Shown here piece after piece: positions 48,407-64,000 of a stretch of DNA of 64,000 nt. Within the stretch, counting starts at the first letter, position 1; each line of letters starts with the position of its first letter. This DNA comes from an uncultured Opitutia bacterium (GTDB taxonomy: Bacteria > Verrucomicrobiota > Verrucomicrobiia > Opitutales > Opitutaceae). The notes beneath the pieces are model-generated. The model made no database searches. It was not told the DNA's origin and saw nothing but the letters and a program-made list of their open reading frames with translations. The DNA lies in the NCBI GenBank assembly GCA_903825285.1, contig CAIJZY010000017.1, positions 167,405 to 231,404 on the forward strand. Direction: 5' to 3'. A program made the translations under genes and the position numbers.

Positions 48407-48527
48407 GCTGCCACAACGGCCAGGTCAGGCGGCAGGGGAGCGAGAGCGATTTCCGCCGCGGACGCGCCGGGAGCCTTGACTCGAAGTGAATTTACTCCAC
48501 CCTCGGCCTGTCAGTCCCCAAACCCCC

Positions 48528-48884
48528 ATGGCCCGCATCATCATTCTCGAGGACGACGAGGTGTTCCGTGAAACCCTCGAGCGCGTGCTCACTGACGCCG
48601 GGCACAGCGTGAAGGCCGCGGGCAACGGTTTCGATGGCATGGCCCTGTTCCGGGCGGAGCCGGCCGACCTGATCCTCACGGACATCGTGATGCCGCATGG
48701 CGGGCTGCAGACGATCCGGGTGCTGCGGACGGAATTTCCCAGCCTCGCCATCATCGCGATGTCGGGCAGCCACGTGCGCCTCGACATGGCCGGCGGGATC
48801 GGCGCGAACAAGATGCTCGCGAAGCCCTTCACCTCGGAGCAGCTGCTCAACGCGATCGCGGAAGTGCTGCAGCCGAAGGCTTGA
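48528..48884 (+). CDS. single-domain response regulator
   Basis: 118 residues, one receiver domain: acidic pocket RIIILEDDEVFRE, phosphoacceptor Asp in LILTDIVMPHGG, Thr/Ser in IIAMSGSHVR, Lys in ANKMLAKPFTSEQLL. There is no output domain, as in CheY or phosphorelay intermediates. No kinase is adjacent, so the partner is unknown. Start MARIIILEDD at 48528. Confidence 0.88.
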   Translation: MARIIILEDDEVFRETLERVLTDAGHSVKAAGNGFDGMALFRAEPADLILTDIVMPHGGLQTIRVLRTEFPSLAIIAMSGSHVRLDMAGGIGANKMLAKPFTSEQLLNAIAEVLQPKA

Positions 48885-49024
48885 GCAGACCAGGCCGGCT
48901 GGATGCCGGAGTGGCGGGCGGCGGTGGGCTCAAATCCATGCCGCGTTTTTGACAAGAAGTGCGGAGCCGTTCGCGGGCAATCGGACTAAGCTCGGCCAGT
49001 TACCCGAAACAAGGAGCGGGTCCC

Positions 49025-49294
49025 ATGAACATCAAACTCCATCTCGATGAGGCGGAATCCGCCCCCGTCGTGCGCTTGGCCCAGCTGTTGGACGTGACTC
49101 CCGAGGACGTGCTTTATACGGCGCTCAACCGCCTGATGATGCATGCCCGCGAGAACGACATCCAGGGTGAGATTGTCCAGACCCGGCTGGCCCGGTCGAA
49201 CAACCTGCCGCTCTGGGCGGACACGGCCGGCTCGGTGCACAACTACGAGGGGCAGGATCCCTGCGAGCCGGGCAAGAGCAAGTATTCCGTCTGA
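49025..49294 (+). CDS. small hypothetical protein
   Basis: 89 residues. N-terminal MNIKLHLDEAESAPVVRLAQLLDVTPEDVLYTALNRLMMHAREND could form a ribbon-helix-helix-like or other small DNA-binding fold; the C-terminal part (SVHNYEGQDPCEPGKSKYSV) looks unstructured. I do not recognise a family. The start is an ATG at 49025; the track ORF begins earlier without support. Confidence 0.5.
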   Translation: MNIKLHLDEAESAPVVRLAQLLDVTPEDVLYTALNRLMMHARENDIQGEIVQTRLARSNNLPLWADTAGSVHNYEGQDPCEPGKSKYSV

Positions 49295-49354
49295 CGTTGG
49301 TCGACGCCCGTCGCGAACCGCGCAGACCGCGCGGCGGCGGGGGCGTGGCCGCGC

Positions 49355-49825
49355 TCAGCGCGCCGCCGAGGAGCGCGCGGCCTTGCGCCGGCGTCGGACC
49401 GGGGCGCGGCTGCACATCTTGTCAAAGGCGGCGATCTCGCGGCGCGCGATGTGGCGCAGCGTGGCGCAAAGCTCGGTCACCGCGGCGGTGCGCTCCGTGA
49501 CGGCGCTCGGCGACCGTCCGGACTTGGCCGCAGCCTGATCCGCCTGGGCGTGAATGAGGGCTTCCAGCAGGGCCTGCTCGAGCGCGGGGAAATAGGCGCG
49601 CATGGGATTGCTGTCGTAGCGGCAGACCGGCCGCGGTCCGGCGCTGCGCACCGGCCGGCCGGGCAGGGCGGAGAGCACCTCGTCCAGCGTAAGGTCGAAC
49701 ATGAAGACCAGCGTGTCGGGATTGGCCAGGGGCGTGTGCAGGCGCTCGATGCGCAGCAGCGCCTCCCAGCGGGCGCGGATCTGCGGGCGCATGGCCTGGA
49801 GCCGGAGCAGCAGGTCGGGGTTCAT
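49355..49825 (-). CDS. helical hypothetical protein
   Basis: 156 residues, predicted all-helical (NPDLLLRLQAMRPQIRARWEALLRIER, DTLVFMFDLTLDEVLSALPG, YFPALEQALLEALIHAQADQAA, TAAVTELCATLRHIARREIAAFDKMC) with a basic tail RRRRKAARSSAAR. No family recognised; the shape is reminiscent of small signalling helix bundles but no catalytic motif is present. Start MNPDLLLRLQ at 49825. A palindrome cluster lies about 195 bp upstream. Confidence 0.5.
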   Translation of the reverse strand: MNPDLLLRLQAMRPQIRARWEALLRIERLHTPLANPDTLVFMFDLTLDEVLSALPGRPVRSAGPRPVCRYDSNPMRAYFPALEQALLEALIHAQADQAAAKSGRSPSAVTERTAAVTELCATLRHIARREIAAFDKMCSRAPVRRRRKAARSSAAR

Positions 49826-50016
49826 GCGGTCATCCCCTCCTGGGGCGCGGCATGACGTCCTAATCTGTGGGCGGAGCAGAAAACTGGGCGCGACCGGAAA
49901 CCGGTGGCGGGATGGGGGGCTCTTTTGGGCAAAATCAATCTCCTCGGGTAACGAACTTCGTTCATGGAACCTACCCGCAGAGGATGCCGCAAAGCCCCGC
50001 GAGCGGCTACGCAGGC

Positions 50017-50043
50017 GTTGCGCAACATTACGCATATGTTGCG
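50017..50043. repeat. overlapping palindromes upstream of the 49355-49825 gene
   Basis: GTTGCGCAAC at 50017-50026 is a perfect palindrome and CGCAACAT-tacgcat-ATGTTGCG at 50021-50043 is an 8-bp inverted repeat overlapping it. They lie in the 274-bp gap between two minus-strand genes and could be a regulator site. Confidence 0.5.
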
Positions 50044-50099
50044 GATCGGTCAGCCGCGCGCGGCGGAGACCCACGGGCGGAACCGCCAAAGGTCGCGGA

Positions 50100-51308
50100 T
50101 CAGCTCCGCAGGAAGCGGTCGTTGAGCCGGCGGTGCCACCGGACATCGCGCCAGTTCGCAAACTGGGGCTGGGCGTAGTTGTGCGGGGTCCAGCCCCACA
50201 TGCCGGCGGCGATGGCGTCATCGACGCTCCATTCCGCCCACTCCAGGAGCCAGCCCCAGTCGAGCTCGGGGCTGTCGAAGTAATACCAGCTCGACCACGA
50301 TTCGCTGGTGGTCAGCGGCATGCCGCGCTCGGCGGCCCAGCCGGCGAAGCGCATGAGCTTCGCGCGCTGCCGCTGGCGGAGCATCGGCCCGATCGCCGCG
50401 GCGGTTTGCTGGCAGCGGCGGGAGAACTCGGCGTGCCAGTCGTTGCGGGTGAAGAGGTGCGGCATGAGCTCGCCGAACTTCGTGCGCTGCGACCAGCGCG
50501 GGTCGGCGTCGGCGTAGAAGTGCACGTCCAGGCAGTCGAGCTCGAGGGGCACGTCGAGCCAGCGCAGGTCGCCGTGGATGGAGGCGGTGAAACGCAGCTC
50601 GGGAAATTCACGGCGCAGCGCGGCGAGCGGGGGATTGAGCTCGTCGGCGATGACCTGCGCCTGGGCGGGCGTGAAGGCGGCGACCCCCCAGTCAATTCCG
50701 TGCTCCTGCTTCAGGCGATGGAGGAAGCCCGGGAAGAAATAGGGCACCTCGTTGGCGAGGTCGACGTAGACGAGCCGTTCGAAGCCGAAGCGCCGGCGCC
50801 ACTGGCGCAGCTGGACGGCCCACATCTCGGCGCCCTCCGCATGCGTGCGCGGGAGCCGGAGCACCGGCGGGCCCTGCAGCGTTGAGCCGGGCAGGTTGCA
50901 AAACCACCAACAGCTGAGCGTGTAGTGAAGCTCCGGGCGGACGAGCAGCTTCTCCATGAACTCGATCAGCCAGCGCCCGGCCGGCGCGGTGACCGCGGTG
51001 TTCCAGTCCCACGGCAGGTACGGCTGTTTCGGATCGGGCCAGTGCAGCCGGCGCGCAGGGTGGGCGAGGTCGATCCACTGCGGCATGGGGTCGAGGCGCA
51101 CGGTGTTGTAGCCGCGCTCGATGGTCTCGTCCAAGACCCGGTCCCAGTCGGCAAAGCTGCCCCCGCGGCCGTGGCGCAGCAGGTAGGCCTGGTCCCACAT
51201 GGCGAGGGTGAGGCGGCGCGGCGTGAGCTGGTCGCGGGCGTCGAAACCGACGCCGGGCGCGGCGGCGGGCCGGGGGGACGCGAGCGTGACTTGGGCGGGC
51301 ATGTCCAT
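50100..51308 (-). CDS. glycoside hydrolase-like protein (clan GH-A barrel)
   Basis: 402 residues, no signal peptide. Beta/alpha-barrel with the clan GH-A catalytic pattern: acid/base NE at 186-187 (YVDLANEVPYF) and a candidate nucleophile Glu336 (TTSESWSSW). Aromatic-rich regions (WPDPKQPYLPWDWNT, CWWFCNLPG, LDWGWLLEWAEWSV, GMWGWTPHNYAQPQF) suggest a carbohydrate cleft. Family within GH-A (GH5-like or unclassified) is not determined. Start MDMPAQVTLA. Divergent from the URO-D-type gene; cytoplasmic location and the pairing suggest a sugar-conjugate pathway. Confidence 0.6.
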   Translation of the reverse strand: MDMPAQVTLASPRPAAAPGVGFDARDQLTPRRLTLAMWDQAYLLRHGRGGSFADWDRVLDETIERGYNTVRLDPMPQWIDLAHPARRLHWPDPKQPYLPWDWNTAVTAPAGRWLIEFMEKLLVRPELHYTLSCWWFCNLPGSTLQGPPVLRLPRTHAEGAEMWAVQLRQWRRRFGFERLVYVDLANEVPYFFPGFLHRLKQEHGIDWGVAAFTPAQAQVIADELNPPLAALRREFPELRFTASIHGDLRWLDVPLELDCLDVHFYADADPRWSQRTKFGELMPHLFTRNDWHAEFSRRCQQTAAAIGPMLRQRQRAKLMRFAGWAAERGMPLTTSESWSSWYYFDSPELDWGWLLEWAEWSVDDAIAAGMWGWTPHNYAQPQFANWRDVRWHRRLNDRFLRS

Positions 51309-51466
51309 GGTCGTGGGGGGACGGCGCCGGGAGCGGAGCCCAAGGCGCACTCCTGCGTAACGGCGGCACGTGGGGGAGGTCAATCCGATCGCGCCGCCGC
51401 TCGGGTCCGCGTGAATTTCTCCTCGTGAGGCGGCGCGGCGCAGCCTAGAAAGCAGGCAAGTGTCCC

Positions 51467-52621
51467 ATGCGTGAAGCACCCTCCAGCGGCCCCGCCTGTC
51501 AGGCGCGTTGCGCGGCGGCCCTGTGCGCCGGGAAAACGGATCGCGCCCCGGTCTACATCCCGGCCATCGCCTGCGGCGTTTCCTCCGCGCTGCTGGGCCG
51601 GCCGGCGCGCACCGGCACGGGCTCGCTGCGGTTTGCGGAGGTGGCGGCCTGGGCCGACGGCGACGCGGCGCACGCGGAATTTGAGGCGGGCATGATCGAG
51701 GACCTCGTGGCCGTGCATCGGCTCCTCGACGCGGATGTGCTGCGCATGCCGTGGCGGATGAACGAGCGGCCCGATGCGCAGCTCGACGAGCACACGTTCC
51801 GGTTTGGGCCCGAGTCCGGCGAGCACACGATCTGGCAGTACCATCCCGCGGCGGCGGATTTCAGTCCAATGTACCGGTCGCCCCGCGTGATGGCGCCGGA
51901 GGCTCGCCTGCGGCAGGAAATCGCGCAGCTGGAGGCCCTGGCGGCCGACCCGATGCCGGCGGCGCGGGAGTCGATTCAGCCGGCGGTGGACCTGTGGCGC
52001 AGGTTTGGCACCGAGTTCGTCGTGTGCAGCGCCGGCGCGGGCATCGGCGTGGGGCTCGAGCCGGATGACCTGGAACTGCTCGTGACCGCGCCGGATCTTG
52101 TCCGACACAAGATGGCCCTGCAGGGAGAATTCGTGATCGCGGTGGGCCGCGCGGTGAAGGAGGCGGGTTTGCCGCCGGTGATGGCGGGCGGGGGAGACCT
52201 CGCAGGCAATCTCGGCCCCATGTACTCGCCCGCGATGTTCCGCGAGGTGGTGCTGCCGGCCTACGTCCGGTCGGTGGCGGAGCTGAACCGCCTGGGTGTG
52301 CACTACTATTTCCGCAGCGACGGCAATCTGTGGACGCTGATGGACATGCTGTTCACCGAGGCCAACTGCCCGGGCTTCGGCGAGGCCGACCGCGACGCGA
52401 TGATGACGGTGGCTGCGGTGCGCGCGCGGTTTCCACGGCTCGTGATCTGGGGCAATGTCTCGTCTTCGCTGCTGATGTCCGGAAGCGCCGAGGAGGTGGC
52501 GGCCCAGGCGCGCACGGCGGTGTCGGAAGCGGAGCAGCGCGGATATTTTCAGGGCTGCTCCAACGCGATTGTCCAGGGAACGCCGGTGGAAAACGTCTGG
52601 GCAATGATGGCGGAGCGCTGA
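51467..52621 (+). CDS. uroporphyrinogen-decarboxylase-family protein (non-HemE)
   Basis: 384 residues, URO-D fold. The C-terminal HYYFRSDGNLWTLMDMLFTEANCPGFGEADRD and LVIWGNVSSSLL, with VMAGGGDLAGNLGPMYSPAMFREVVLPAYVRSV, match the methyltransferase-like branch (MtaA/CmuA-type) more than HemE. Those relatives transfer methyl groups to or from corrinoid or thiol cofactors. The substrate is unknown; no corrinoid protein is adjacent. The N-terminal KTDRAPVYIPAIACG is family-typical. 158 bp divide it from the divergent GH gene. Confidence 0.75.
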   Translation: MREAPSSGPACQARCAAALCAGKTDRAPVYIPAIACGVSSALLGRPARTGTGSLRFAEVAAWADGDAAHAEFEAGMIEDLVAVHRLLDADVLRMPWRMNERPDAQLDEHTFRFGPESGEHTIWQYHPAAADFSPMYRSPRVMAPEARLRQEIAQLEALAADPMPAARESIQPAVDLWRRFGTEFVVCSAGAGIGVGLEPDDLELLVTAPDLVRHKMALQGEFVIAVGRAVKEAGLPPVMAGGGDLAGNLGPMYSPAMFREVVLPAYVRSVAELNRLGVHYYFRSDGNLWTLMDMLFTEANCPGFGEADRDAMMTVAAVRARFPRLVIWGNVSSSLLMSGSAEEVAAQARTAVSEAEQRGYFQGCSNAIVQGTPVENVWAMMAER

Positions 52622-52725
52622 CCCCGTCGGCGCTGGCGGGAGACCGGCCCGGAAGGCGTGCCGGTCATGAAAGGATTATGAAATCCGCCGCTTCCCGGCG
52701 TGCTGGCACGGCACCCTCGGCGGGA

Positions 52726-52756
52726 TACGTAATTTTTCCGTTAAATGCGTAGTTAC
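52726..52756. repeat. TACGTAATTT...AAATGCGTAGTTAC element
   Basis: TACGTAATTTTTCCGTTAAATGCGTAGTTAC is an imperfect inverted repeat (TACGtAaTTT / AAAtGCGTA) in the 175-bp gap after the URO-D-type gene and 41 bp before the small ORF at 52797. It looks like a regulator or promoter site. Confidence 0.45.
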
Positions 52757-52796
52757 ACAGATCGTGTGAGACCGGTGGTGTCCACAGGGTCGGCGC

Positions 52797-53009
52797 ATGT
52801 ACTCCAGCCGGCGCAGCTTCACCCATTCGAACGGCATCACTTTTGTGGATCGCCGTTACGATTTTCTCAGCCGGGTGATCGTGGGCGTGAGCGTGCAGGC
52901 GGGCGCGGCGGACGCGCAGCTTGATTCCGCGGAGCGGATTGGGGCGCTGGAGGAAGCCGAGCGCCTGCTGCGGGAAGTGACCGAGATGTTCGAGCAGCGC
53001 TTCGAATAA
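52797..53009 (+). CDS. small hypothetical protein
   Basis: 70 residues: a short N-terminal SRRSFTHSNGITFVDRRYDFLSRVIVGV part and a helical, acidic C-terminal part (SAERIGALEEAERLLREVTEMFEQRFE). No family recognised. It ends 16 bp before the end of convergent rpoZ. Existence rests on an open frame with a plausible coding composition. Confidence 0.4.
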   Translation: MYSSRRSFTHSNGITFVDRRYDFLSRVIVGVSVQAGAADAQLDSAERIGALEEAERLLREVTEMFEQRFE

Positions 53010-53025
53010 GCGCCGGTCGGGCGGC

Positions 53026-53244
53026 TTAACGCCGAGCCAATTGCTCCGCGGTCGGCAACTCGTAGCTGATCTTGCCTTCCATGATCTCGCGCAGGGCGGT
53101 GTCCTCGGCCGAGAGTTTCTCGAGCGACTCGACCAGGGGACGATTGCCGTTGCGCAGCTGCTTCACGCGGCGGGACACCACGTTGACCAGGATGTTGGGG
53201 TCGGTGATCAGCTTTAGCGCGGCGTGTAGATAGTCGTCTCTCAT
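53026..53244 (-). CDS. rpoZ: RNA polymerase omega subunit
   Basis: 72 residues. Omega assists folding and assembly of beta-prime. Recognised by NILVNVVSRRVKQLRNGNRPLVE and ALREIMEGKISYEL, the omega pattern (RRARQL...PLV...ALREIxEGxI). Shorter than E. coli omega but normal for small forms. Start MRDDYLHAALKLI at 53244. Confidence 0.85.
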   Translation of the reverse strand: MRDDYLHAALKLITDPNILVNVVSRRVKQLRNGNRPLVESLEKLSAEDTALREIMEGKISYELPTAEQLARR

Positions 53245-53749
53245 GATGAAATGCCGGCAAGCGGCGCTGTGGGTGAAGCCGTTCCGTATAAGAGCGGCTG
53301 AGGCGGACATTTTATGTGGACGGAAGCGCGAAAACGACCCTGATCCGTCGGGTTGCCCGACGTGGGCAGTGAATCGTTTGGGGAGCACCGCCTTAGGTCA
53401 CTCTTAAGACGATGAACCGGCTGCCAGGACTCGCCTCACGAATCCCGGAGCGGGGAGGGCACAATTTGCTTGCCTCGCGGGTCGAAGAGAAGAGATCAAG
53501 AGGCAGAGTCCGGTCAGCATCCAGATGCACGGTTGAGATCGTGGTTTGAGCCAGACAGCAGGACAGCGGTTTTCGCAGGCAGGTTATCTGCAGTGAGCCA
53601 GCTTCGAGTTTTCGGGCAGCGCCAGTGGCATCGAGTCCCAGGGCCTGCCGTCAGCGAGTGATGTCCCTGGCAGTGACGGTTGTCAGCGTGAGGGATGCGA
53701 CCGGATTCATGCCCAGCCTTAACCCAGAACCCATGGATGAAAGGAACCT
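53245..53749. other. gene-free stretch between rpoZ and the 53750 gene
   Basis: About 505 bp. It should contain the rpoZ promoter (minus) and that of the 53750 gene, which has an AAGGA RBS. I see no tRNA, riboswitch or convincing ORF; short frames from the track (53470-53661) show no protein-like features. Confidence 0.5.
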
Positions 53750-54178
53750 ATGAATCTTACCCAACTATTAACTCAGCGTCGGACCCTGCTGCGGCAGGGA
53801 CACCTGGCCAACCTGGCCTTTGCCTATGTGCGGCTCAGCGAATTTACCCAGCGGCTCGACCGGGCGGGGCTGAAAGGGACGGTGCGCCTGCGGCACGCGG
53901 AGACGGAGACCGGGATTGCGTGGCCCACGCTCACCGTGGATGGGGCCAATGCGTCGGTGGTGGAGGAGCACTTCACGGATGAGGACGTGATCGAATGGGC
54001 GGACGTCTTCACCTTCATCACCGCGGAGAACGAGCTCGACCTCGCGTTTTCGCCGGAAGGACTGGCGGAGCGCTTCCTCGTCCCGCTGCGCGCGGAACTG
54101 GAGCACGCCGGCGTGGTGGTTGACCTCCAACCTCCATCCTCCGCGAGCCAGGCTCACCGGACGGCCGGCGAGAGCTAA
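53750..54178 (+). CDS. hypothetical protein
   Basis: 142 residues, soluble, acidic: MNLTQLLTQRRTLLRQGHLANLAFAYVRLSEFTQRLDRAGLKGTVRLRHAE, then a beta-rich middle and EHFTDEDVIEWADVFTFITAENELDLAFSPEGLAERFLVPLRAELEHAGV. The RBS AAGGAACCT sits at normal spacing. No family recognised. Convergent with the OPA transporter gene (28 bp). Confidence 0.6.
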   Translation: MNLTQLLTQRRTLLRQGHLANLAFAYVRLSEFTQRLDRAGLKGTVRLRHAETETGIAWPTLTVDGANASVVEEHFTDEDVIEWADVFTFITAENELDLAFSPEGLAERFLVPLRAELEHAGVVVDLQPPSSASQAHRTAGES

Positions 54179-54206
54179 ACGCAGTGGTCAGGCCGCGGCG
54201 CTCGGC

Positions 54207-55547
54207 TCAGGCCCGGGCGCCGCGGGCCTTGACCGCGGTCTGGCTCCAGGTGAGCGCCAGCAGGGCGCAGCCGATCAGCGCCGACGCGGCGTAGAGCCCG
54301 ATGGCGCCGTTCCAGCCGAACGCGTCCACCAGCAGGCCGGTGCCCACGCCGCAGACCGAGGCGCCGAGGTAGCCCAGCAGGCCGGTGAGTCCCACGGCAC
54401 TGGAGGACGCGGCCTTGGTGGCGAAATCCGCCGCGGCCACGGCAACGAGCATCTGCGGGCCGTACACGAAGAATCCGAGCGCCCCGAACAGCGCGGCCAT
54501 GGTCAGCCGCTGTCCCGCGGGCACGAAGAACATCAGCCCCACCGCGACGAGCAGGAGGAGCATGAAGAACACCGACACCGGTCCGCGCCGGCCATCGAGC
54601 TTGTCGGAGATCCAGCCGGCGGCGTAAGCGCCGAAAATACCCGCGATCTCGAAGACGGACAGCGACACGCCCGCGTCGTTCAGCGTGAAGCCCTTGGCCT
54701 CCACGAGGTATTTCGGCGCCCAGTCCAGCACGCCGATGCGCACGATATAGATGAAGAAATTGGCGAAGCTCACGATCCAGACCCAGGGGTTGGTGAGGAT
54801 GTGCTCCCGGAAGATGCCCCAGAAGGAATCCTCGCGAGCGACCGCCGGCACGGGTGCTGCGCCCTCGCGGAAGACCTCCACGGCCGGCAGGCCCAGCGAC
54901 TCGGGCGAGTCGGTCAGGCGGTTGAACAGCCACGCGGATCCCGCCGCGCAGAGGGCGGCGGGAACCCAGAACGCCGCGCGCCAGCCGTAATAGGTCACCA
55001 GGTAGCCGGCGCCGACGGCGATCATCGCGCCGCCGACCTGGTGCGAGGCATTCCAGACGCCCCAGGCGCGGCCGATTTCCTTCGGGCTGAACCAGTGCGT
55101 GAGCAGCCGGAAGCAGGGTGGGGAACCTGCGCCCTGGAAAAGATTGTTGAGCGCCCAGAGCGCGACGAAGGCGACGAGGCCGGCGCCGAAGCCAAAGCCG
55201 ACATTGACGAGCGCCGAAAGGAGCAGGCCGCCGGCCATGAGGTAGCGCGGGTTGGTCCGGTCGCCGATGATGCCGCTGAGAAACTTGGAGACGGCATAGA
55301 CAATGGTCGCCGTGCTCAGCAGCAGGCCCCACTGCGTATTGGTGAAGCCGAACTCATCGATGATGGACTTGGCGGCCATCGAGAGATTCTTCCGCAGCAG
55401 GTAGTACAGGGCGTAGCCCGTGGTCATCGAATACATGACGCGGAGCCGCCAGTAGCGGTAGAGCCGCCTGACCTCCGCGGGATCCTCGATCGCGGGAGCG
55501 GCCGCCGGGAGTCGGAGCTGGCCTTGGATCGTGCGGAGCAAATTCAT
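54207..55547 (-). CDS. organophosphate:phosphate antiporter (OPA/MFS family)
   Basis: 446 residues, twelve transmembrane segments. YALYYLLRKNLSMAAKSIIDEFGFTNTQWGLLLS, GDRTNPRYLM and ALWALNNLFQGAGSPPCFRLLTHWFSPKEIGRAWGVWNASHQVGGA match the GlpT/UhpT/UhpC branch, with Arg residues kept in the first helices. It takes up glycerol-3-phosphate, hexose phosphate or a similar ester in exchange for phosphate. Start MNLLRTIQG. The left end of the tRNA-Glu repeat (55648) lies 100 bp upstream, so the element may have altered its promoter. Confidence 0.85.
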   Translation of the reverse strand: MNLLRTIQGQLRLPAAAPAIEDPAEVRRLYRYWRLRVMYSMTTGYALYYLLRKNLSMAAKSIIDEFGFTNTQWGLLLSTATIVYAVSKFLSGIIGDRTNPRYLMAGGLLLSALVNVGFGFGAGLVAFVALWALNNLFQGAGSPPCFRLLTHWFSPKEIGRAWGVWNASHQVGGAMIAVGAGYLVTYYGWRAAFWVPAALCAAGSAWLFNRLTDSPESLGLPAVEVFREGAAPVPAVAREDSFWGIFREHILTNPWVWIVSFANFFIYIVRIGVLDWAPKYLVEAKGFTLNDAGVSLSVFEIAGIFGAYAAGWISDKLDGRRGPVSVFFMLLLLVAVGLMFFVPAGQRLTMAALFGALGFFVYGPQMLVAVAAADFATKAASSSAVGLTGLLGYLGASVCGVGTGLLVDAFGWNGAIGLYAASALIGCALLALTWSQTAVKARGARA

Positions 55548-55647
55548 GAAGGCCAGTGAGACCAAAGCCACGCCGTCACGGGGTCAAAACCAGAGTCAGA
55601 AGCAATCGCCTCGCGGCGCGCAACTCGGCCAACATGGCCGTCTAAAG

Positions 55648-55667
55648 TGGTGCCCCCACGGGGAATC
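55648..55667 (-). repeat. attachment-site repeat, left (tRNA-Glu 3'-end copy)
   Basis: TGGTGCCCCCACGGGGAATC is identical to the last 20 nt (with CCA) of tRNA-Glu(CTC) at 63240-63259, in direct orientation. Outside the 20 bp the sequences differ on both sides and no tRNA continues here. Confidence 0.85.
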
Positions 55668-55773
55668 ATTTACCCTCTAAGGCTCCGTCCATTTTCTGAA
55701 ATAGGACATTTATAGGACGTTTTGTTCTCAGTCAGGCTCTGTGGTGGACAGCGCCGCGTCTATTCGAGGCGTT

Positions 55774-56101
55774 TCATTCGGCTTGGACGCGATGGAGTGC
55801 GTAGGGCAATTGCGCAAAGTCTACTCGCAGTTCACGCAATGAACGGTGGTTGATGAATTTCGCCGCTGCGAATACAAGCGCCTGCTTACCCGTGCCCTTG
55901 TTCGCAGCAGCGATTGCCTCGGCATGGGTGCGCGTGAAGGCAGCAGCGGGACTACGCAACCACAACTCGTCTGTCGTCGAGGTCCGGCTGCTTGCCCTCT
56001 GCCGAACAGCTTTTCTCCGGCACCACGAGCAGCTCGCGATACGGCACGCCGAGGTGGTGGGTGTAGATGAAGCTCTTCCCTTTGAAATCGAGTGACGGCA
56101 T
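55774..56101 (-). pseudogene. remnant of a DNA methyltransferase gene (Mod-like)
   Basis: On the minus strand MPSLDFKGKSFIYTHHLGVPYRELLVVPEKSC...PDLDD is the typical N-terminus of adenine-specific site-specific DNA methyltransferases of the type III Mod kind, which normally run on to a (N/D)LIIHGDNL motif. Here the reading ends after LDD (RRVVVA stop). In the next frame a C-terminus-like stretch follows: THAEAIAAANKGTGKQALVFAAAKFINHRSLRELRVDFAQLPYALHRV, stop at 55774. The body (catalytic motifs) is absent. It reads as an internal deletion that fused the two ends out of frame. That the C-terminal piece is from the same gene is inference. Confidence 0.55.
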
Positions 56102-56187
56102 GCCAAACAGCATGCAAAACGGAAACACGGGCGCGAGGGAATTTCCGCCGGCGCGCGGGGAAACCCACACGCCGGTCGCTGTCAGAC

Positions 56188-56206
56188 AAAAAGGGGCCGA
56201 AGCCCC
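56188..56206 (-). terminator. Rho-independent terminator of the DUF6573-type gene
   Basis: On the minus strand GGGGC-ttcg-GCCCC is followed by TTTTT. The UUCG tetraloop stem starts 4 bp after the stop codon at 56211. Confidence 0.88.
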
Positions 56207-56210
56207 GTGG

Positions 56211-56576
56211 TCAGTCCTCGTCGAGTAGCATGAGGGTGAGGACCGGCGCGGGCGTGTCGCCGGGTCCGACGTGAAGTTTCAGGTCGTGGGCGCGATTTCC
56301 GATGATAACCCTGAACGAGATGGTATCCGCTTCCCGGTTTCGTTGGCTTATCATGGTCTTCGCGGCCCAGCTTATGTCGTGGAGGATTCCATCGAGGTCG
56401 GAACCTGATTTGGTCCCTTCCTCGATGATAGACCACACCGTGGCGGTGCAGCAAAAGCTCCGGGACCAGTAGACCCGGATGACTTGAAATTGGGACAGGT
56501 TTACGAGCACGCCGTCGTCGATGGCTTGTTGCCGGCTGTAGGAAAAAATGACTTCTCCGAACGGGTTACTATCCAT
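56211..56576 (-). CDS. DUF6573-type protein
   Basis: 121 residues. MDSNPFGEVIFSYSRQQAIDDGVLVNLS is the recognisable N-terminus of DUF6573 proteins, found on phages, plasmids and integrative elements. The C-terminal half (ISFRVIIGNRAHDLKLHVGPGDTPAPVLTLMLLDED) is family-like. No enzymatic motif; the function is unknown. The start MDSNPFGE at 56576 was chosen over the longer track ORF. Presence here supports mobile origin. Its own terminator follows. Confidence 0.7.
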   Translation of the reverse strand: MDSNPFGEVIFSYSRQQAIDDGVLVNLSQFQVIRVYWSRSFCCTATVWSIIEEGTKSGSDLDGILHDISWAAKTMISQRNREADTISFRVIIGNRAHDLKLHVGPGDTPAPVLTLMLLDED

Positions 56577-57020
56577 GGTTTGCGCCGTCCGGCGGCTCGG
56601 TCGTGTGTGCGTCTTGCACCTTATCGACCTCACTGCCGATTGGCGTTTCGCCTCACCCACGAAAGTCAAAGGGGTGCGGAGCGCCGAGGAGTGGTGACTT
56701 GCTCACCCGACGAGGGGGAAGCGCAGGTTTCCCCGTGGTGGAGGCCCGAAGGGCACGACCTTGACCGTGGGTAAAATGGGAGAAACAGCGGCTGGCAGTG
56801 CGCTAGTAAAAATCGAGTGTTAGCGAGCATCTTTCCTTCCCCTGGGTGCGAGCGCTGCGATGACCCCAAAAGGTCGTAGCAAGCGAGCCGGGCGGGCGGG
56901 AATCTACCCGAGTGGCTGGCAAAGCGGGTCAGCAGTCTCCGAGGACGCGCAGATGAAACGAAACAACGACGGAAGGCAGCGCCGGAGCGCCGGTGCCGAA
57001 ATTGTCCTGGTGTAGCGGAT

Positions 57021-57146
57021 GGGGCGGAAATTCGAGGGGCGGAAATTGGGATTTTACGCCGTATCTGCCCCACGCGCGCCACACCGGCGACGGCAGGGGC
57101 GGAAAGGAATAAGGCAGCCTATAACATAGGCTGCCGTTTCCGCCCC
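57021..57146. repeat. iteron-like GGGGCGGAAA repeats
   Basis: GGGGCGGAAATT occurs at 57021-57032 and 57036-57047 (15-bp spacing), GGGGCGGAAA at 57096-57105, and its complement TTTCCGCCCC at 57137-57146. Four copies in 126 bp upstream of a RepA-like gene suggest binding sites for a replication initiator or repressor. Confidence 0.6.
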
Positions 57147-57153
57147 CTGCCGG
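57083..57153. repeat. large nested hairpin upstream of the RepA-like gene
   Basis: The outer arms CCGGCGACGGCAGGGGCGGAAA and TTTCCGCCCCCTGCCGGTCGCCCGG are reverse complements with three bulged bases. Inside lies a perfect inner hairpin GGCAGCCTAT-aac-ATAGGCTGCC. It sits 87 bp before the ATG at 57240, with an AT-rich stretch (AAATAGTATTTTAAGAAAT) between. Confidence 0.75.
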
Positions 57154-57239
57154 TCGCCCGGCCAACGAGAAATAGTATTTTAAGAAATCTTGCCCCGGCA
57201 CGTTTCGCCTACGTTTACCTGGCGGTATACTGCCTCGTT

Positions 57240-58400
57240 ATGAATCTACTTAACTGTGCTCCAATCATCGAATTTGAAATCGTCCCGCTCTCTATCATTG
57301 AGGGACTTACAGACGAAAAGGTTATCCAGAATCAGCCGCCAAAAAATCCCGCCCCGGCGTCGGGCGAACTCCCGGACATTGTTTCGGGAGACCATTTTCT
57401 CGAAATCAACTACCCACCACGACGGGAGTTGATTGAGGGGCTGTTGCACCAAGGGACCAAGCTCCTGCTGGCCGGCGCGAGCAAAGCGGGCAAGACTTGG
57501 CTGCTGCTTGCGATGGCAATCGCTGTTGCCACCGGCGAGCATTGGCTCGGCCTGGCGACGAGGCAGTCCCGCGTGCTGTTCATCAACCTGGAAATTCTGC
57601 CCGATTTTTTCCAGCATCGCTGCTGGATGGTGAAGGAAAAAATGGGCCTGAATTCACTTGGCTCCCTCACCGTCTGGAATTTGAGAGGCTACGAAGCGGA
57701 CATTGCAGTAATGGTAGACCACATCCTGGCCCGAATCCAAAAGGACGGCGGCTACGACATGGTCGTGATTGACCCAGTTTATAAATGTTATGGCGGAAGA
57801 GACGAGAACAACGCGGGGGATATGGCGAATTTCCTTTCTCACCTCGAACGAATCGCGGCAAACACCGGCGCGGCGGTCGTTTTTTCCACGCACCATTCGA
57901 AGGGAAATCAAGCCGGCAGGAACGTGCTGGACCGCACGTCAGGCTCCGGTGTATTTGCCCGCGATGCCGACACTTACCTGAGTGTCACCGAACACGAGAA
58001 GGACCAGCATTTCTCGGTGGAATCAGTGGTGCGCAATGGGCCTCCCGTGCCCGCGTTCGTGCTGAGGAAGGCGTTCCCATTATTCGTGCGTGACGACACA
58101 ATCGACCCATCCAAACTGAAGCGGTCGAACCGGCGCGCTGCTCCTGCTTCACAAACTTCCGCCCCTCTCGGCAGGAAGCCGAAGTTCACCGATGAAGAAC
58201 TGCTTAATCTGCTGCCGGCGGCGGGGCTTACTTACGGTGAATGGGAGAAAGCCGCGAAAGATGCGCTGGCCTGCTCGGAAACTACATTCAAAGAAAAGCG
58301 CCGGGCACTCATAGGCAATAAAGCCGTCGCCTTGGAAAAATACCGTTACACGCGGCTCGCCGGCCTGGATTCAGGCGCAACCCCGATGACTGAGACCTGA
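57240..58400 (+). CDS. AAA ATPase, RepA-like (RecA-fold helicase/primase-associated)
   Basis: 386 residues. Walker A GASKAGKTW at 79-87, Walker B MVVIDPVY at 174-181, and a TTHHSKG-like sensor (FSTHHSKGNQAG, about 215-224). This is the pattern of RSF1010 RepA and phage/plasmid AAA_25 ATPases. The C-terminal region (KPKFTDEELLNLLPAAGLTYGEWEKAAKDALACSETTFKEKRRAL) looks like a small helix-turn-helix. It probably unwinds DNA for element replication. A -10-like TATACT ends 8 bp before the ATG, so either the transcript is nearly leaderless or the true start is later. Confidence 0.75.
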   Translation: MNLLNCAPIIEFEIVPLSIIEGLTDEKVIQNQPPKNPAPASGELPDIVSGDHFLEINYPPRRELIEGLLHQGTKLLLAGASKAGKTWLLLAMAIAVATGEHWLGLATRQSRVLFINLEILPDFFQHRCWMVKEKMGLNSLGSLTVWNLRGYEADIAVMVDHILARIQKDGGYDMVVIDPVYKCYGGRDENNAGDMANFLSHLERIAANTGAAVVFSTHHSKGNQAGRNVLDRTSGSGVFARDADTYLSVTEHEKDQHFSVESVVRNGPPVPAFVLRKAFPLFVRDDTIDPSKLKRSNRRAAPASQTSAPLGRKPKFTDEELLNLLPAAGLTYGEWEKAAKDALACSETTFKEKRRALIGNKAVALEKYRYTRLAGLDSGATPMTET

Positions 58401-58402
58401 GT

Positions 58403-59092
58403 TCAATTCCCAATGTCCGGAGAACTTCTTCCCAGCCGCTGAACGGCCTTGGCCTGAAACGCTGCGTGGTCCGGATGGCCCCGAAAATCCACCAATGGAC
58501 TTAGCGCGCCCATTGCGTCGGGTCGGTCTGGAATTTCACGGATGCGGTCACAGTGGATACGCTTGGCCGGCAGCCAATCTAGGAATTCACCGGCGGGTCT
58601 GGCTGTGAGATGACAAGACTTGCCTCCATCTGCTATCCGGCGGAGCAATAATCTTAGGTCGGTGCCCGTGGGTGACTTTGCTTGGTATGTGAGAGAGGAA
58701 AACCCGAGAATGAGGTGTTGGCTTCGGCTGATGCCAATGAGTTGGAGCGACGCCCATGGATGGTAATCAGCCCGAAATCCCAAATCCACGATGAACCAAC
58801 CATCACGGGCCGGCGCATTGTCGGGGAGCGGCGCACCGTATTGGCGCGACTGCCGCTTGGACCACACCACCGTCCGCACCCTAGGGGTTAGCGGGCCGAC
58901 GGTGTTGTTTGCATCATCTCGGAAATCGAGCGGTTGACCTGCAACGTAGTCCCGCAGGACGAACGTCGGATAAGTGCACTCCGCCGCCAGATAGCCTTCG
59001 GTCGATACAAAGGTCACCGTCTCTCCCGACAGAGTCGCATAGATGACCGTGTTGGCCGCCAGACACACGTCGTTTGTCTTGATTGTGCTCAA
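58403..59092 (-). CDS. hypothetical protein of the island, coupled to the upstream gene
   Basis: 229 residues with a TTG start that overlaps the upstream stop (TTGA). Mixed alpha/beta, soluble: STIKTNDVCLAANTVIYATLSGETVTFVSTEGYLAAECTYPTFVLRDYVAG, then DGWFIVDLGFRADYHPWASLQLIGISRSQHLILGFSS. No family recognised. It converges on the RepA-like gene with 2 bp between stop codons. The longer track start would require reading through the upstream gene. Confidence 0.5.
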   Translation of the reverse strand: MSTIKTNDVCLAANTVIYATLSGETVTFVSTEGYLAAECTYPTFVLRDYVAGQPLDFRDDANNTVGPLTPRVRTVVWSKRQSRQYGAPLPDNAPARDGWFIVDLGFRADYHPWASLQLIGISRSQHLILGFSSLTYQAKSPTGTDLRLLLRRIADGGKSCHLTARPAGEFLDWLPAKRIHCDRIREIPDRPDAMGALSPLVDFRGHPDHAAFQAKAVQRLGRSSPDIGN

Positions 59093-59412
59093 AGGAAGCT
59101 CCGGCCCGCCATGATGACAGCCACAACAGCAATAACCGCCCAAATCCAAATCAACGCCTTCATGGAGTCTGCGATATCGGTGTTAACTACCAACGCGCGC
59201 TCCGACTGCTGTTTCACGATGCCGAGGTCGTCCCGTTGCGCGCCGTTTGCTCCGTAGAGCGGCTGCACGGACTGCCGGACAACCTCGGCGACCATACCCG
59301 GCATATTGGCCTGAAGTGCGGCCAGTTGTGACTTGGCGTCAAGCAAGACGCGCTGTGTTTCTGCCAGTGTTGAATGCGTCGCCGTGGCGAGGTCGATGGC
59401 TTTCTCCATCAT
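59089..59412 (-). CDS. small membrane protein with coiled-coil-like N-terminus
   Basis: 107 residues. The N-terminal part (EKAIDLATATHSTLAETQRVLLDAKSQLAALQANM...) is helical and coiled-coil-like; the C-terminus has one membrane segment (ADSMKALIWIWAVIAVVAVIMAGRSFL). Such a tail-anchored layout fits many small element proteins but no function is implied. ATG at 59412 or 59409. The stop overlaps the TTG start of the next gene. Its promoter would have to lie in the truncated polymerase DNA. Confidence 0.5.
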   Translation of the reverse strand: MMEKAIDLATATHSTLAETQRVLLDAKSQLAALQANMPGMVAEVVRQSVQPLYGANGAQRDDLGIVKQQSERALVVNTDIADSMKALIWIWAVIAVVAVIMAGRSFL

Positions 59413-59435
59413 CAACCGCGAATCAACCGTGCCCG

Positions 59436-60344
59436 CTGGCGCAGCGGATCGGACCCTGCCTGACGAGTTCCATCGGCATCGCGCCCAACTGGATGCTGGC
59501 GAAGATGGCGGCCGACCTGCACAAGCCGGACGGGCTCACGGTCATTGACGATGCCGACATTCCCGGCCGGCTGCTCGACCTGCCGATCAGCGACTTTCCC
59601 GGCATCGGTTCCCAAATGGAGCTCCGCCTGAAACTGCGCGGCATCGGCACCGTCGAGCAGCTGTACCGGGCGACCAAGTCCCAGCTCCACGGCGCATGGG
59701 GCGGCATTGAGGGCGAGCGCATGTATGAGCGGCTCCGCGGGGCCAGCGTCCCGCTGCCGATTCAGAAGAACCAGACCGTCGGCCATTCGCACGTCCTGCC
59801 GCCCTTCCTGCGCACCCAAGAGAAGGCCCACGCCGTGCTCCACAAGCTGCTCCAGAAGGCCGCCATGCGGCTGCGGGACATCGGCCACTACTCCGGCGGC
59901 CTGACCGTTTGGGTGAGCTACCGCAACGGCGTGAAGTGGTACGACGACCTTCGTTTCAACGAGACGCAGGACACCGTCACCCTGACCGCCGCGCTGAACC
60001 AGCTGTGGCGGCGGCGGCCTTGGGAGCTGCTGCACGCCGAGCCGATGCAGCTCGGGCTGGTCCTGACACACCTGCTCGAGATGCGGGGCCACACCCTCGA
60101 CCTGTTCGAACAGCCCAAGCACGACGCCCGCGAGCGGCTGAACCACGCGGTCGACACGGTCAACCAGACCTTCGGCCACGGCTCGGTCTATTTCGGCGGC
60201 GCCCACGGCGTGATCGAAAACGCTCCGATGCGGATTTCCTTCACCTGCATCCCCAAGCCCGAGATTGAGGAGATCGATCCGAAACGGGAAAGAAGGCTCC
60301 GGCCGCTCCCGCCGAAGCCAGCCGAAGCCGAGTCGCCGGACTGA
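59436..60344 (+). pseudogene. Y-family DNA polymerase, N-terminally truncated
   Basis: Clear Y-family (DinB/UmuC) sequence starts abruptly at about 59440: GPCLTSSIGIAPNWMLAKMAADLHKPDGLTVIDD, then the helix-hairpin-helix DLPISDFPGIGSQMELRLKLRGIGTVEQLY and the little-finger domain to IDPKRERRLRPLPPKP. The N-terminal palm/fingers with the catalytic Asp and the DE pair are missing. The track ORF supplies an unrelated N-terminus from the antisense of the neighbouring gene. So the gene has no intact active site; it is a fossil of an SOS-type translesion polymerase cut by an insertion or deletion. Confidence 0.75.
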
Positions 60345-60365
60345 GCCGGAATCATCCAATCGGAG

Positions 60366-60517
60366 TCAGCCACTGAGAGCACGGATGAACACGGATCGAT
60401 GCCTTGGCAGAAAAGACCAAATACTGTGCGATCCACAAAGCCGGGATGTGTCCGGAAAGGAGTAGGCTCAGGCCGCGACTCTGAAAATCCGTGCCCATCC
60501 GAGTGATCCGTGGCTCA
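60366..60517. repeat. inverted repeat with CACGGATGAACACGGAT arms
   Basis: TCAGCCACTGAGAGCACGGATGAACACGGAT (60366-60396) and ATCCGTGCCCATCCGAGTGATCCGTGGCTCA (60487-60517) are imperfect reverse complements around a 90-bp loop. This lies in the 307-bp gene-free gap 60345-60651. Sequences of this kind recur in verrucomicrobial genomes, to my knowledge. Confidence 0.6.
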
Positions 60518-60651
60518 ATTTCCTGGTTCAAACCGAGCCGTCCGCCGGTTTCGGCACCGCCGTATCCCAGCGGCGGGGCGGAACGACGGATTTTCCAAAA
60601 AAGATGCGCGGAATGGGGGCGGATCGGTGTTATGGACTATCACTCCCCCTC

Positions 60652-61839
60652 ATGCGCCAGTTATTGCTCGCTCTCGCCCTGTCCTTTACCAGCGCGATGG
60701 CCGCCGATTCCCAGATGTTTCGCGGCCATCCCTCCCTTAGCGGTGTGACCCCGCCGCCCGGAAAGCCCTTGGAAGGCAAAATCGCCTGGAGCAGCGCCAC
60801 GATGGGCTGGGAGTTGTACCAGCCGCTGGAGAACATGGACGGTCAGGCCGTGTTCCCCTCCACGCCGGCGGTGGTCGGTGGCCGCATTTATCTCTGCGCC
60901 GGGCCCTACCTCTTCGTGTTCGATGCCGCGGGCCAGCCGGTGTACCATGTGAAGCTCAGCGCCTGCACCTTGGCCAGCCCCACCGTGGTTGACGGACTGG
61001 TGTATGTGTCGACCGATGACGGACGGATGCATGCCGTGGAGGCCAAGGACGGCAAGGAACGCTGGACCGCGGTCATCGGCGCCAATCCGTTCATGAAGCA
61101 GGTGGACAATTGGGATGTGTACCACTCCTCCGCCACGGTCGTGGACGGCGTGCTCTACGTCGGCAGCGCCGACGGCCGGATCTACGCCCTGTCCGCCGCA
61201 AATGGAAAGGAGCTTTGGCATTTTCAGACCGGCCACGTCGTGCGCGCGACGCCCGCGGTGGTGGCGGGCCGGGTGTATTGCGGCAGTTTTGACGGCAAGG
61301 TCTATGCCTTGGACGCGGCCACCGGCAGCAAGCTCTGGGAAGTGGATACCGCGACCAAGGGAACTCCCTGGCACGCCGTGCAGGGTTCCTGCGCCGTCGT
61401 CGACGGGACGGTCTACGTCGGCAGCCGCAGCGGATTCCTGTATGCGATCGACGCGGCCACGGGCAAGGTCCGCTGGCAGGAGAGCCATGACGGCAACTGG
61501 GTTCCCAGTTCGCCGGCGGTGCGCGACGGCATCGCGTATGTCGGCCAGTCTGACGGACACAAAGTCACTGCGGTTTCGCCGGACGGCAAGGTGCTCTGGC
61601 GCATTGACGCCCCGAACGAGACCTTCGCCTCACCCCTGCTGGCCGGGGACATTTTGTATGTGGCCGGCAACGACAACTACAACCAGCAGGGCAAGGGCAG
61701 CCTGTGCGCCCTCGAGGCCAAGACCGGGAAAGTCGTCTGGAAACTGGAGCTGCCCGCCAGCGTGTGGGCTTCGCCCGTGCTGGTGGACGGCACGCTCTAC
61801 GCCGCCTGCGCCGACGGCAAGCTGTACGCGATCCGGTAG
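60652..61839 (+). CDS. secreted PQQ-type beta-propeller protein
   Basis: 395 residues. Signal peptide MRQLLLALALSFTSAMA. The rest is a beta-propeller of repeats with the AxDAxTGxxxW pattern (VFDAAGQPVYH, AVEAKDGKERWT, ALSAANGKELWHF, ALDAATGSKLWEV, AIDAATGKVRWQ, AVSPDGKVLWRI, ALEAKTGKVVWKL), about seven to eight blades. It lacks the PQQ-binding residues of dehydrogenases that I can check by eye, so a binding or scaffold protein is likely (PQQ_2/BamB-like). It is exported; the target is unknown. 114 bp before the DUF2264 gene. Confidence 0.8.
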   Translation: MRQLLLALALSFTSAMAADSQMFRGHPSLSGVTPPPGKPLEGKIAWSSATMGWELYQPLENMDGQAVFPSTPAVVGGRIYLCAGPYLFVFDAAGQPVYHVKLSACTLASPTVVDGLVYVSTDDGRMHAVEAKDGKERWTAVIGANPFMKQVDNWDVYHSSATVVDGVLYVGSADGRIYALSAANGKELWHFQTGHVVRATPAVVAGRVYCGSFDGKVYALDAATGSKLWEVDTATKGTPWHAVQGSCAVVDGTVYVGSRSGFLYAIDAATGKVRWQESHDGNWVPSSPAVRDGIAYVGQSDGHKVTAVSPDGKVLWRIDAPNETFASPLLAGDILYVAGNDNYNQQGKGSLCALEAKTGKVVWKLELPASVWASPVLVDGTLYAACADGKLYAIR

Positions 61840-61953
61840 GCGGCGGCGGACGGGTCGGCGCGGGTTTACTGTATGGAGAAATATCCGGACGCTTTGGCCG
61901 GCGTCCGCTTGTCCCCGGACGCGGGCTCGTCCACGCTGCCTCCACCCCACCCC

Positions 61954-63195
61954 ATGAATGCCCTGTTCCGTTGCGTCCTCCTCCTCGTTTGTTTCCCCGC
62001 GTTTCTCCGCTCAGCCGCCCCGGCCATGTCCGCCGCGCTGACGGCCGGGCAGGCCGAACGCGCGCAGTGGTGCGCGCTGGCCACCAAGCTGGCGGATCCG
62101 ATTCTTGTCTCCCTTTCGCAGCGTCAGCTCAAGCGCGTCATGCCCGTCGAAGCCTTCGATCCGGCCGCCCGCGCCGCCTCGACTCATCTTGAGGCGCTCG
62201 GCCGCCTGCTGGATGGGCTCGCCCCGTGGCTGGAACTGGGCGGCGATGACACGCCCGAAGGCAGGGAGCGCGCCCGGCTCGCGGACCTCGCCCGCCAGGC
62301 CATCGACGCCGCCACGGACCCGGCCTCCCCGGACAAGATGAACTTCACCGAGGGCGGACAGCCCCTCGTCGACGCCGCGTTTCTCTCTCAGGCCATCCTG
62401 CGCGCCCCGCACGAACTGTGGGACAAACTGGACCCGCGCGTCCGTCAGAACCTCATCACCTGCCTCGAATCGACGCGCACGATCAAGCCGCCGGAAACCA
62501 ACTGGCTGCTCTTCTCCTCCACGGTTGAGGCCCTGTTGCACCGCGTCGGCGCGCACCGCGACGAAGCCCGGCTCATGCACGGGTTGGAGCGCTTCCAGCA
62601 CTGGTACGTCGGCGACGGCGTGTACGGCGACGGCGCCGAGTTCCACTGGGATTACTACAACGCCTATGTCATCCAGCCGATGCTGCTCGATATCCTGGCG
62701 GTCGTCGGCGACGAGACCCCGGAGCTGCGGAATTTCCGCACCGAGGTGCACCAGCGCGCGCAGCGCTACGCCGCCATCCAGGAGCGCCTGATCGCGCCCG
62801 ACGGCACCTTCCCCGTGATCGGCCGCTCCATCGCCTACCGGGCCGGCGCCTTCCAGGGACTGGCCGCCGTCGCCCTGCACCACGAGTTGCCCCCCGCGAT
62901 CCGCCCGGGGCAGGCGCGGGCCGCGCTCAATGCCGTCATCCACCGGACGCTCGATGCGCCCGGCACGTTTGACGACCACGGCTGGCTGCGGCTCGGACTG
63001 GCCGGCCATCAGCCCGCCCTGGCCGAGAAATACATTTCCACCGGCAGCCTGTACCTCTGCAGCTTCGCGTTCCTTCCGCTCGGCCTGCCCGCCTCGGATC
63101 CGTTCTGGACCGAACCCGCCACCCCCACCACGTGGCAGCAGGTCTGGTCCGGCGCCGACCTCCCCGCCGACTCCGCGCTGAAGGCCGCGCACTGA
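61954..63195 (+). CDS. DUF2264 family protein (alpha/alpha-toroid, secreted)
   Basis: 413 residues. Signal peptide MNALFRCVLLLVCFPAFLRSAAPA. DUF2264 pattern: LEALGRLLDGLAPWLELGGDD, PETNWLLFSSTVEALLHRVG, GDGVYGDGAEFHWDYYNAYVIQPMLLDIL, PDGTFPVIGRSIAYRAGAFQGLAAVAL, WLRLGLAGHQPALAEKYISTGSLYL. These proteins have an alpha/alpha-barrel as in polysaccharide lyases and unsaturated hydrolases, so an uronic-acid or pectin-type substrate is likely; activity is unproven. Composition is host-like. Confidence 0.8.
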   Translation: MNALFRCVLLLVCFPAFLRSAAPAMSAALTAGQAERAQWCALATKLADPILVSLSQRQLKRVMPVEAFDPAARAASTHLEALGRLLDGLAPWLELGGDDTPEGRERARLADLARQAIDAATDPASPDKMNFTEGGQPLVDAAFLSQAILRAPHELWDKLDPRVRQNLITCLESTRTIKPPETNWLLFSSTVEALLHRVGAHRDEARLMHGLERFQHWYVGDGVYGDGAEFHWDYYNAYVIQPMLLDILAVVGDETPELRNFRTEVHQRAQRYAAIQERLIAPDGTFPVIGRSIAYRAGAFQGLAAVALHHELPPAIRPGQARAALNAVIHRTLDAPGTFDDHGWLRLGLAGHQPALAEKYISTGSLYLCSFAFLPLGLPASDPFWTEPATPTTWQQVWSGADLPADSALKAAH

Positions 63196-63201
63196 GCCAA
63201 A

Positions 63202-63233
63202 ACAAAACCCCTCCCGCCATAGAGCGAGAGGGG
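63202..63233 (-). terminator. terminator downstream of tRNA-Glu
   Basis: On the minus strand CCCCTCtCGC-tctatg-GCGgGAGGGG is followed by TTTTGTTTT. It lies 6 bp after the tRNA 3' end and ends tRNA transcription before the convergent DUF2264 gene. Confidence 0.8.
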
Positions 63234-63239
63234 TGAAAT

Positions 63240-63259
63240 TGGTGCCCCCACGGGGAATC
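63240..63259 (-). repeat. attachment-site repeat, right (inside tRNA-Glu)
   Basis: TGGTGCCCCCACGGGGAATC, the tRNA 3' end from CCA to the T loop, identical to 55648-55667. The tRNA is restored intact here, as after integrase-mediated insertion. Confidence 0.85.
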
Positions 63260-63314
63260 GAACCCCGCTTTGAAGATTGAGAATCTCCTGTCCTAACCGA
63301 TAGACGATGAGGGC
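63240..63314 (-). tRNA. tRNA-Glu(CTC)
   Basis: Minus strand. Acceptor GCCCTCA/TGGGGGC, anticodon stem GGAGA/TCTTC around loop TTCTCAA giving anticodon CTC, T arm GCGGGG-TTCGATT-CCCCG, discriminator A, encoded CCA. Reads GAG. The last 20 nt are duplicated at 55648-55667, marking it as the integration site. Confidence 0.95.
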
Positions 63315-63385: not shown

Positions 63386-64000
63386 TCAATAAAACAGGGA
63401 GCGGTCCAGGCTGCGGTACCGGATGGCTTCCAGCAGGTGCGGCGCCTCGATGCGCTCGGCCAGGGCCAGGTCCGCGATGGTGCGCGCGACCTTGAGAATC
63501 CGGTCGTAGGCGCGGGCGGAGAGGCTGAGCTGCTCCATGGCCTGCTGCAGGAGGTCGCCGAGCGCGGGCTCGATCGCGCAGTGCCGGCGGATCTGCGCGT
63601 GGGTCATGCGCGCGTTGGCCACCGTGCGGGTGCCGGCGAACCGTTCCTGCTGGCGGGTTCGGGCTGCCTCGGTGCGGGACCGCAGCGCAGCGGAGGTTTC
63701 GCCCGTCTGCTCAGAGCGCAGCTCGCTGAGCGACAGGGCCGGGGCGTCGATGTGGATGTCGATGCGGTCGAGGAGCGGGCCGCTGATGCGGGCGCGGTAG
63801 CGCTGCACCTGGGTCGGCGAGCAGCGGCACTCGTGCTTCGGGTCGCCGAGGTAGCCGCAAGGGCAAGGGTTCATCGCGGCGACGAGCATGAACGCGCAGG
63901 GGAGCGTGACCTTGCCCGCGCTGCGGGAGATGGCGACCTCGCCGTCCTCCAGCGGCTGGCGGAGCACCTCGAGGGCGGAGCGCTTGAACTCCGGCAGCTC
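63386..64000 (-). CDS. comM: ComM/YifB-type Mg-chelatase-like AAA protein, C-terminal part
   Basis: 205 codons in the window; the gene continues past the right edge. [46 protein letters not shown] is the diagnostic ComM/YifB segment with the Cys-rich insert, followed by the Mg_chelatase_C domain ([36 protein letters not shown]). ComM promotes branch migration during natural transformation. The N-terminal domain and Walker A lie outside the window. Confidence 0.95.

Follow-up and report, generated by a model that had tools for sequence, protein, structure and literature searches.

A probable decayed island at a tRNA-Glu(CTC) gene that serves as an integration hotspot in an Opitutaceae genus

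Features between the two copies of the tRNA-Glu 3′ end

The window, by which we mean the whole 64-kb stretch of DNA analyzed here, makes up the rightmost part of a 231-kb contig, one of 62 in a 3.7-Mb draft genome. Close to its right margin lies a tRNA-Glu(CTC) gene (63240–63314, minus strand), the integration target, whose 3′ end faces left. It is followed by its conserved neighbor comM (Mg chelatase-like; 63386–64000, minus strand), which is cut by the contig end. A 20-bp direct repeat, TGGTGCCCCCACGGGGAATC, occurs in exact copies at 63240–63259, the 3′ end of the tRNA gene, and at 55648–55667 on the plus strand. A scan of the 3.7-Mb genome allowing up to two mismatches returned only these two places, so the repeat is neither a chance match nor present in many copies. 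A preliminary description of this DNA had proposed that a direct repeat of the tRNA 3′ end bounds a segment with the intact tRNA gene at its right, 3′ end toward the interval, and both observations are borne out.

The tRNA gene ends ~700 bp from the contig end, and the arrangement next to it is known from one draft assembly. The comM gene is split across two contigs (window 63386–64000 and G000:C27:45289–45438), the ends of which overlap by ~150 bp with 96% amino-acid identity, which suggests a strain mixture at the contig end.

The left half of the bounded segment is low in GC, as previously described, with 57.9% for 55668–59430 versus 66.7% for 59431–63239 and 70% for the left 49 kb of the window. 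Beginning at the distal repeat copy, it carries a type III methyltransferase relic (55774–56125, minus strand), the N- and C-terminal pieces of which lie in different frames with the middle gone, and a gene for a DUF6573 protein (56211–56669, minus strand; Pfam). These are followed by a gene for an AAA_25 ATPase (57240–58400, plus strand), an orphan gene without family match (58403–59149, minus strand) and a gene for a small orphan protein with a hydrophobic C-terminus and without convincing family match (59089–59415, minus strand). The relatives of the AAA_25 protein are primase-helicases of phages and mobile elements. There was one 27% match among genome contigs, the best match in 388 genomes of the phylum reached ~44% identity over part of the protein, and viral contigs gave none; with such matches, the AAA_25 protein was rejected as a lead to a close relative of the whole element. 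An intact relative combining AAA_25, DUF6573 and a divergent integrase was not found, and the scanned open reading frames of 55648–63239 contained no relaxase or conjugation genes.

At ~59430 the GC content steps from 0.579 to 0.667. This junction (59416–59436) coincides with the start of a dinB-like gene of the Y-family polymerases (59436–60344, plus strand), which is 5′-truncated and lacks its N-terminal part; a full-length paralogue is present on contig C7. Further toward the tRNA follow a gene for a PQQ-type beta-propeller protein (60652–61839, plus strand), with host-like GC and no close relative in 200 genomes of the family, and a gene for a DUF2264 protein (61954–63195, plus strand). 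The latter is common in the family and sporadic in the genus, where it was seen only in this genome and in G011. The GC content from 59431 to the tRNA gene resembles that of the outer block described below. Insertion of an element into dinB was considered and rejected because the missing N-terminal part is found nowhere in the window. No core or arm remains near 59430.

From the truncated dinB, the GC content of 66.7% and the host-like genes of the right half, it follows that the element is truncated near 59430. The element is a ~3.8-kb remnant of 58% GC reaching from 55648 to ~59430, the far end of a former insertion, and the DNA between ~59430 and the tRNA gene probably came from elsewhere. 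The idea that 55648–63239 constitutes one island is not supported, given that at 59430 the GC content steps and dinB begins in truncated form; only the left part of the segment is element-like. Searching with five integrases by tblastn and with a profile built from the divergent integrases at tRNA-Glu described below, we found no tyrosine recombinase in the window, and the open reading frames of 55648–63239 scanned against Pfam included no serine recombinase. The reported lack of both recombinase types thus holds window-wide for the tyrosine type and among the scanned frames of the interval for the serine type.

The outer variable block and the empty site

To the left of the distal repeat copy, the window contains a response-regulator gene (48486–48884, plus strand), which together with ndk adjoins tRNA-Glu in G005 and G011, and then the last gene before the variable interval (49023–49294, plus strand). 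Between this gene and the repeat lies an outer variable block (49295–55647) with cellulase-like, URO-D family, rpoZ-like and MFS genes that are not syntenic in relatives. Its interpretation as one conserved chromosomal segment was rejected, as relatives carry these genes at different loci without common synteny. Near 49295, local alignment to the core scored 16, below the window background of ~24–27, and the idea of a decayed copy there was likewise dismissed. The rpoZ-like gene (53026–53388) shares 81% DNA identity with G000:C17:108913–109098 of the same genome; several members of the genus also have two rpoZ-like copies.

In three genomes of this genus, tRNA-Glu and comM adjoin the DNA that corresponds to the window up to ~48.9 kb. 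The distance from the response-regulator gene to the tRNA is shortest in G005 (~0.5 kb), intermediate in G011 (~1.5 kb) and longest in G009 (~3.2 kb). The tRNA site is empty in G011: only 3 nt separate the tRNA from the end of a small gene, and this end resembles by eye that of the window gene at 49023–49294. Measured against G011, the surplus in the window from 49294 to 63240 amounts to ~13.9 kb rather than 7.6 kb. Because the tRNA in G011 directly follows the counterpart of this gene, the whole of 49.3–63.24 kb is variable hotspot DNA. The clean junction 55647|63240 expected from the preliminary description was not seen, as none of the fetched relatives had the MFS gene adjoining the tRNA; the empty junction of G011 corresponds to 49294|63240.

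The tRNA-Glu(CTC) 3′ side in related genomes

The same tRNA is flanked by an integrase remnant in G005, by a divergent integrase and a DUF5906 primase-like gene in G009, by a 4.8-kb element in G010 that has ~29-bp cores and encodes a canonical integrase of its own, and by tandem cores with remnants in G004, including an integrase remnant at a distal core. The 16–17 kb fetched from G003 and G004 did not contain ndk. Empty in one genome and differently filled in these four, the 3′ side of tRNA-Glu(CTC) is an integration hotspot in this genus. A literature search returned nothing relevant on tRNA-Glu islands in Opitutaceae or Verrucomicrobia. The recurrent use of this site is hereby documented for the genus, and, for a group that has received little study, it appears a good place to seek small mobile elements and defense genes.

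In G004 (locus L048, G004:C111, 998–4834), two more tRNA-Glu cores lie behind the tRNA, at 2654 and 4815, and the stretches between the cores hold a metabolic-type gene and only an N-terminal integrase remnant. This is a second genome with integrase-less decay at tRNA-Glu(CTC).

Two elements with canonical integrases displayed a further peculiarity. Both in G010 at tRNA-Glu(CTC) (L081, G010:C10, 42–1326 and 4689–4915) and in the genome studied here at tRNA-Glu(TTC) (L091, G000:C41, 16207–17491 and 9713–9939), the integrase gene is directed toward the tRNA and has its end within it. When the gene is continued into the sequence beyond the distal core, as it would be in an excised circle, the reading frame extends from 416 to 479 and from 415 to 478 amino acids, respectively, and the extended proteins share a conserved tail (LAKVVAAWPSLRSELKTAIDAIVDA and LAKVVSAWPCLRPELRAAISAIVDA). 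Judged from these reading frames, integration appears to cut a conserved C-terminal tail of ~65 amino acids off the integrase in both elements. The idea is shared with mycobacteriophages with integration-dependent immunity, in which attP lies inside a gene whose product changes upon integration (PMC4557955). Both elements also encode HUH-type-like replication proteins (L081, 3448–4689; L091, 8588–9724 and 9939–11171), which suggests that they are integrated rolling-circle replicons; the G010 protein gave a weak match to PF23343, and those of L091 were judged by eye.

A divergent tyrosine recombinase family and its arm motifs

Directly 3′ of tRNA-Glu(CTC), G009 encodes an integrase of 433 amino acids, and relatives of 58–60% identity occupy the same position in two other genera (G028 and G036). 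The Pfam Phage_integrase model did not recognize the G009 protein and matched only 5 of the 11 family members (E 0.05 or better), a practical warning against calling islands “integrase-less”. R271, K304, R360 and Y392 are invariant across all 11 members, with N in place of the usual first H of the HxxR motif, PHROG integrase families were matched by ten of them, and the G009 protein had weak PDB matches to XerD and integrases. On the basis of the invariant R-K-R-Y residues and these matches, we classify the G009-type integrase by sequence as a divergent tyrosine recombinase.

Attachment sites at this tRNA show a recurring pair of GGAC motifs. On the integrase side, GGAC-N6-GGAC with an AT-rich spacer starts 84–85 nt before the core (six sites: G009, G005, G001, G004c2, G028 and G036). 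The far-side version, GGAC-N7-GGAC, begins 36 nt past the core and was seen at two sites, G004c1 and window position 55648. The arm motif was defined on these eight sites, in part after the window had been seen. In the window the arm pair is GGACATTTATAGGAC (55704–55718, plus strand), with the same offset from the core as in G004, and it is the single occurrence of an AT-spaced GGAC pair in the 64 kb on both strands. Going by sequence and spacing, putative integrase arm-type sites are present at the distal end. The orientation of the pair agrees with the earlier placement of the element to the right of 55648, toward the tRNA. Near 63240, on the 3′ side of the tRNA, there is neither an arm pair nor an integrase. 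The left flank of the 55648 core showed no convincing homology to other integrase-side arms when compared with shuffled sequence. With 20 bp, the core is as short as in the divergent-integrase family (~17–21 bp in G004); the canonical tRNA-Glu integrases of G010 and of the tRNA-Glu(TTC) islands in the genome studied here use cores of ~29 bp. An orphan tRNA repeat can thus be assigned to a specific integrase family by its arm spacing.

Origin of the segment

We consider it likely that the locus is a decayed island: that a divergent tyrosine recombinase integrated an element into the 3′ end of tRNA-Glu(CTC), that 55648 marks the distal attachment site, and that the proximal half of the element was subsequently lost. 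Integration at tRNA-Glu is strongly supported by the integrase family and arms in the relatives together with the arm present at 55648. In the proposed sequence of events, the element would have inserted at the tRNA 3′ end through a recombinase of the kind still found at this tRNA in relatives. A deletion or rearrangement would then have taken away the part nearest the tRNA, including integrase and second arm; the same event may have fused the element to a second, 5′-truncated dinB copy near 59430 and brought the host-like propeller and DUF2264 genes beside the tRNA. The methyltransferase gene would also have lost its middle. The 6.4 kb further to the left would be other variable DNA at the same hotspot, which corresponds to the interval from tRNA-Glu to ndk. 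By itself, the remnant is predicted to be unable to move.

The GC step at 59430 would also fit two tandem islands, a low-GC one (55648–59430) and a cargo one (59430–63239), fused by deletion of the core and integrase between them. Tandem cores exist at tRNA-Glu(CTC) in G004 and at the own tRNA-Glu(TTC), and the G004 segments contain metabolic-type genes without an intact integrase. Yet no core or arm is left near 59430, and the tRNA-proximal end lacks the integrase-side arm, which makes this arrangement unlikely.

The preliminary description had left open whether a helper integrase is used or the integrase was lost. Loss together with the tRNA-proximal half is most likely; a helper integrase is unlikely, as the proximal end consists of the truncated dinB and host-like genes and the genome encodes no close relative of the integrase. 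That all of 55648–63239 is a single integrase-less island, moved via its two 20-bp cores by a helper integrase from another locus of the genome, would agree with both cores being exact and with the several tyrosine recombinases of this genome, among which the one at tRNA-Glu(TTC) shares 59% identity with that of the G010 tRNA-Glu(CTC) element. However, no integrase of the genome belongs to the tRNA-Glu(CTC) clade or is a close relative of the family with matching arms, the related ones use cores of ~29 bp instead of 20 bp, the tRNA lacks an integrase-side arm, and the GC step with the truncated dinB at 59430 speaks against one unit. We therefore regard such an island as quite improbable, and it is very doubtful that the 7.6-kb segment is still a living minimal island, consisting of two 20-bp cores and a distal arm and moved in trans by another tRNA-Glu integrase of the genome.

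That the repeat copy is a stray piece of a tRNA gene or arose by misassembly near the contig end is conceivable for a draft genome in which the tRNA lies ~700 bp from that end, but extremely improbable: an arm pair follows the copy, spaced as in the integrase family found at this tRNA, and a sharp GC change and element genes adjoin it.

Comparison with known systems

The locus resembles islands of the tyrosine-recombinase type at tRNA 3′ ends in its short repeat of the tRNA 3′ end, the intact tRNA on one side with the island on its 3′ side, the low-GC element genes and the recurrent use of one tRNA. Unlike these, it possesses neither an integrase nor an integrase-side arm, and about half of the bounded DNA looks host-like or otherwise acquired. 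With the elements in G009, G028 and G036 it shares the target tRNA and the kind of arm pair; those elements, however, encode the divergent integrase (accompanied in G009 by the DUF5906 primase-like gene), whereas the window has the AAA_25 ATPase.

The nearest named concept is the cis-mobilizable element (CIME), a decayed ICE or IME that has lost its integration and transfer genes and kept attL and attR (PMC5704250, PMC7563491). Here too the integrase is lost and both core copies are kept, and tandem decay at one tRNA site is seen in G004. An origin from an ICE or IME would be conjectural for the remnant, which may never have carried a relaxase or conjugation gene; the window retains only the distal arm, at 55648, and has no integrase-bearing partner in tandem. 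We do not file it as a CIME because only one attachment site is complete. As genome relics go, the locus is ordinary, a decayed tRNA island of a known kind, with unusually clear footprints.
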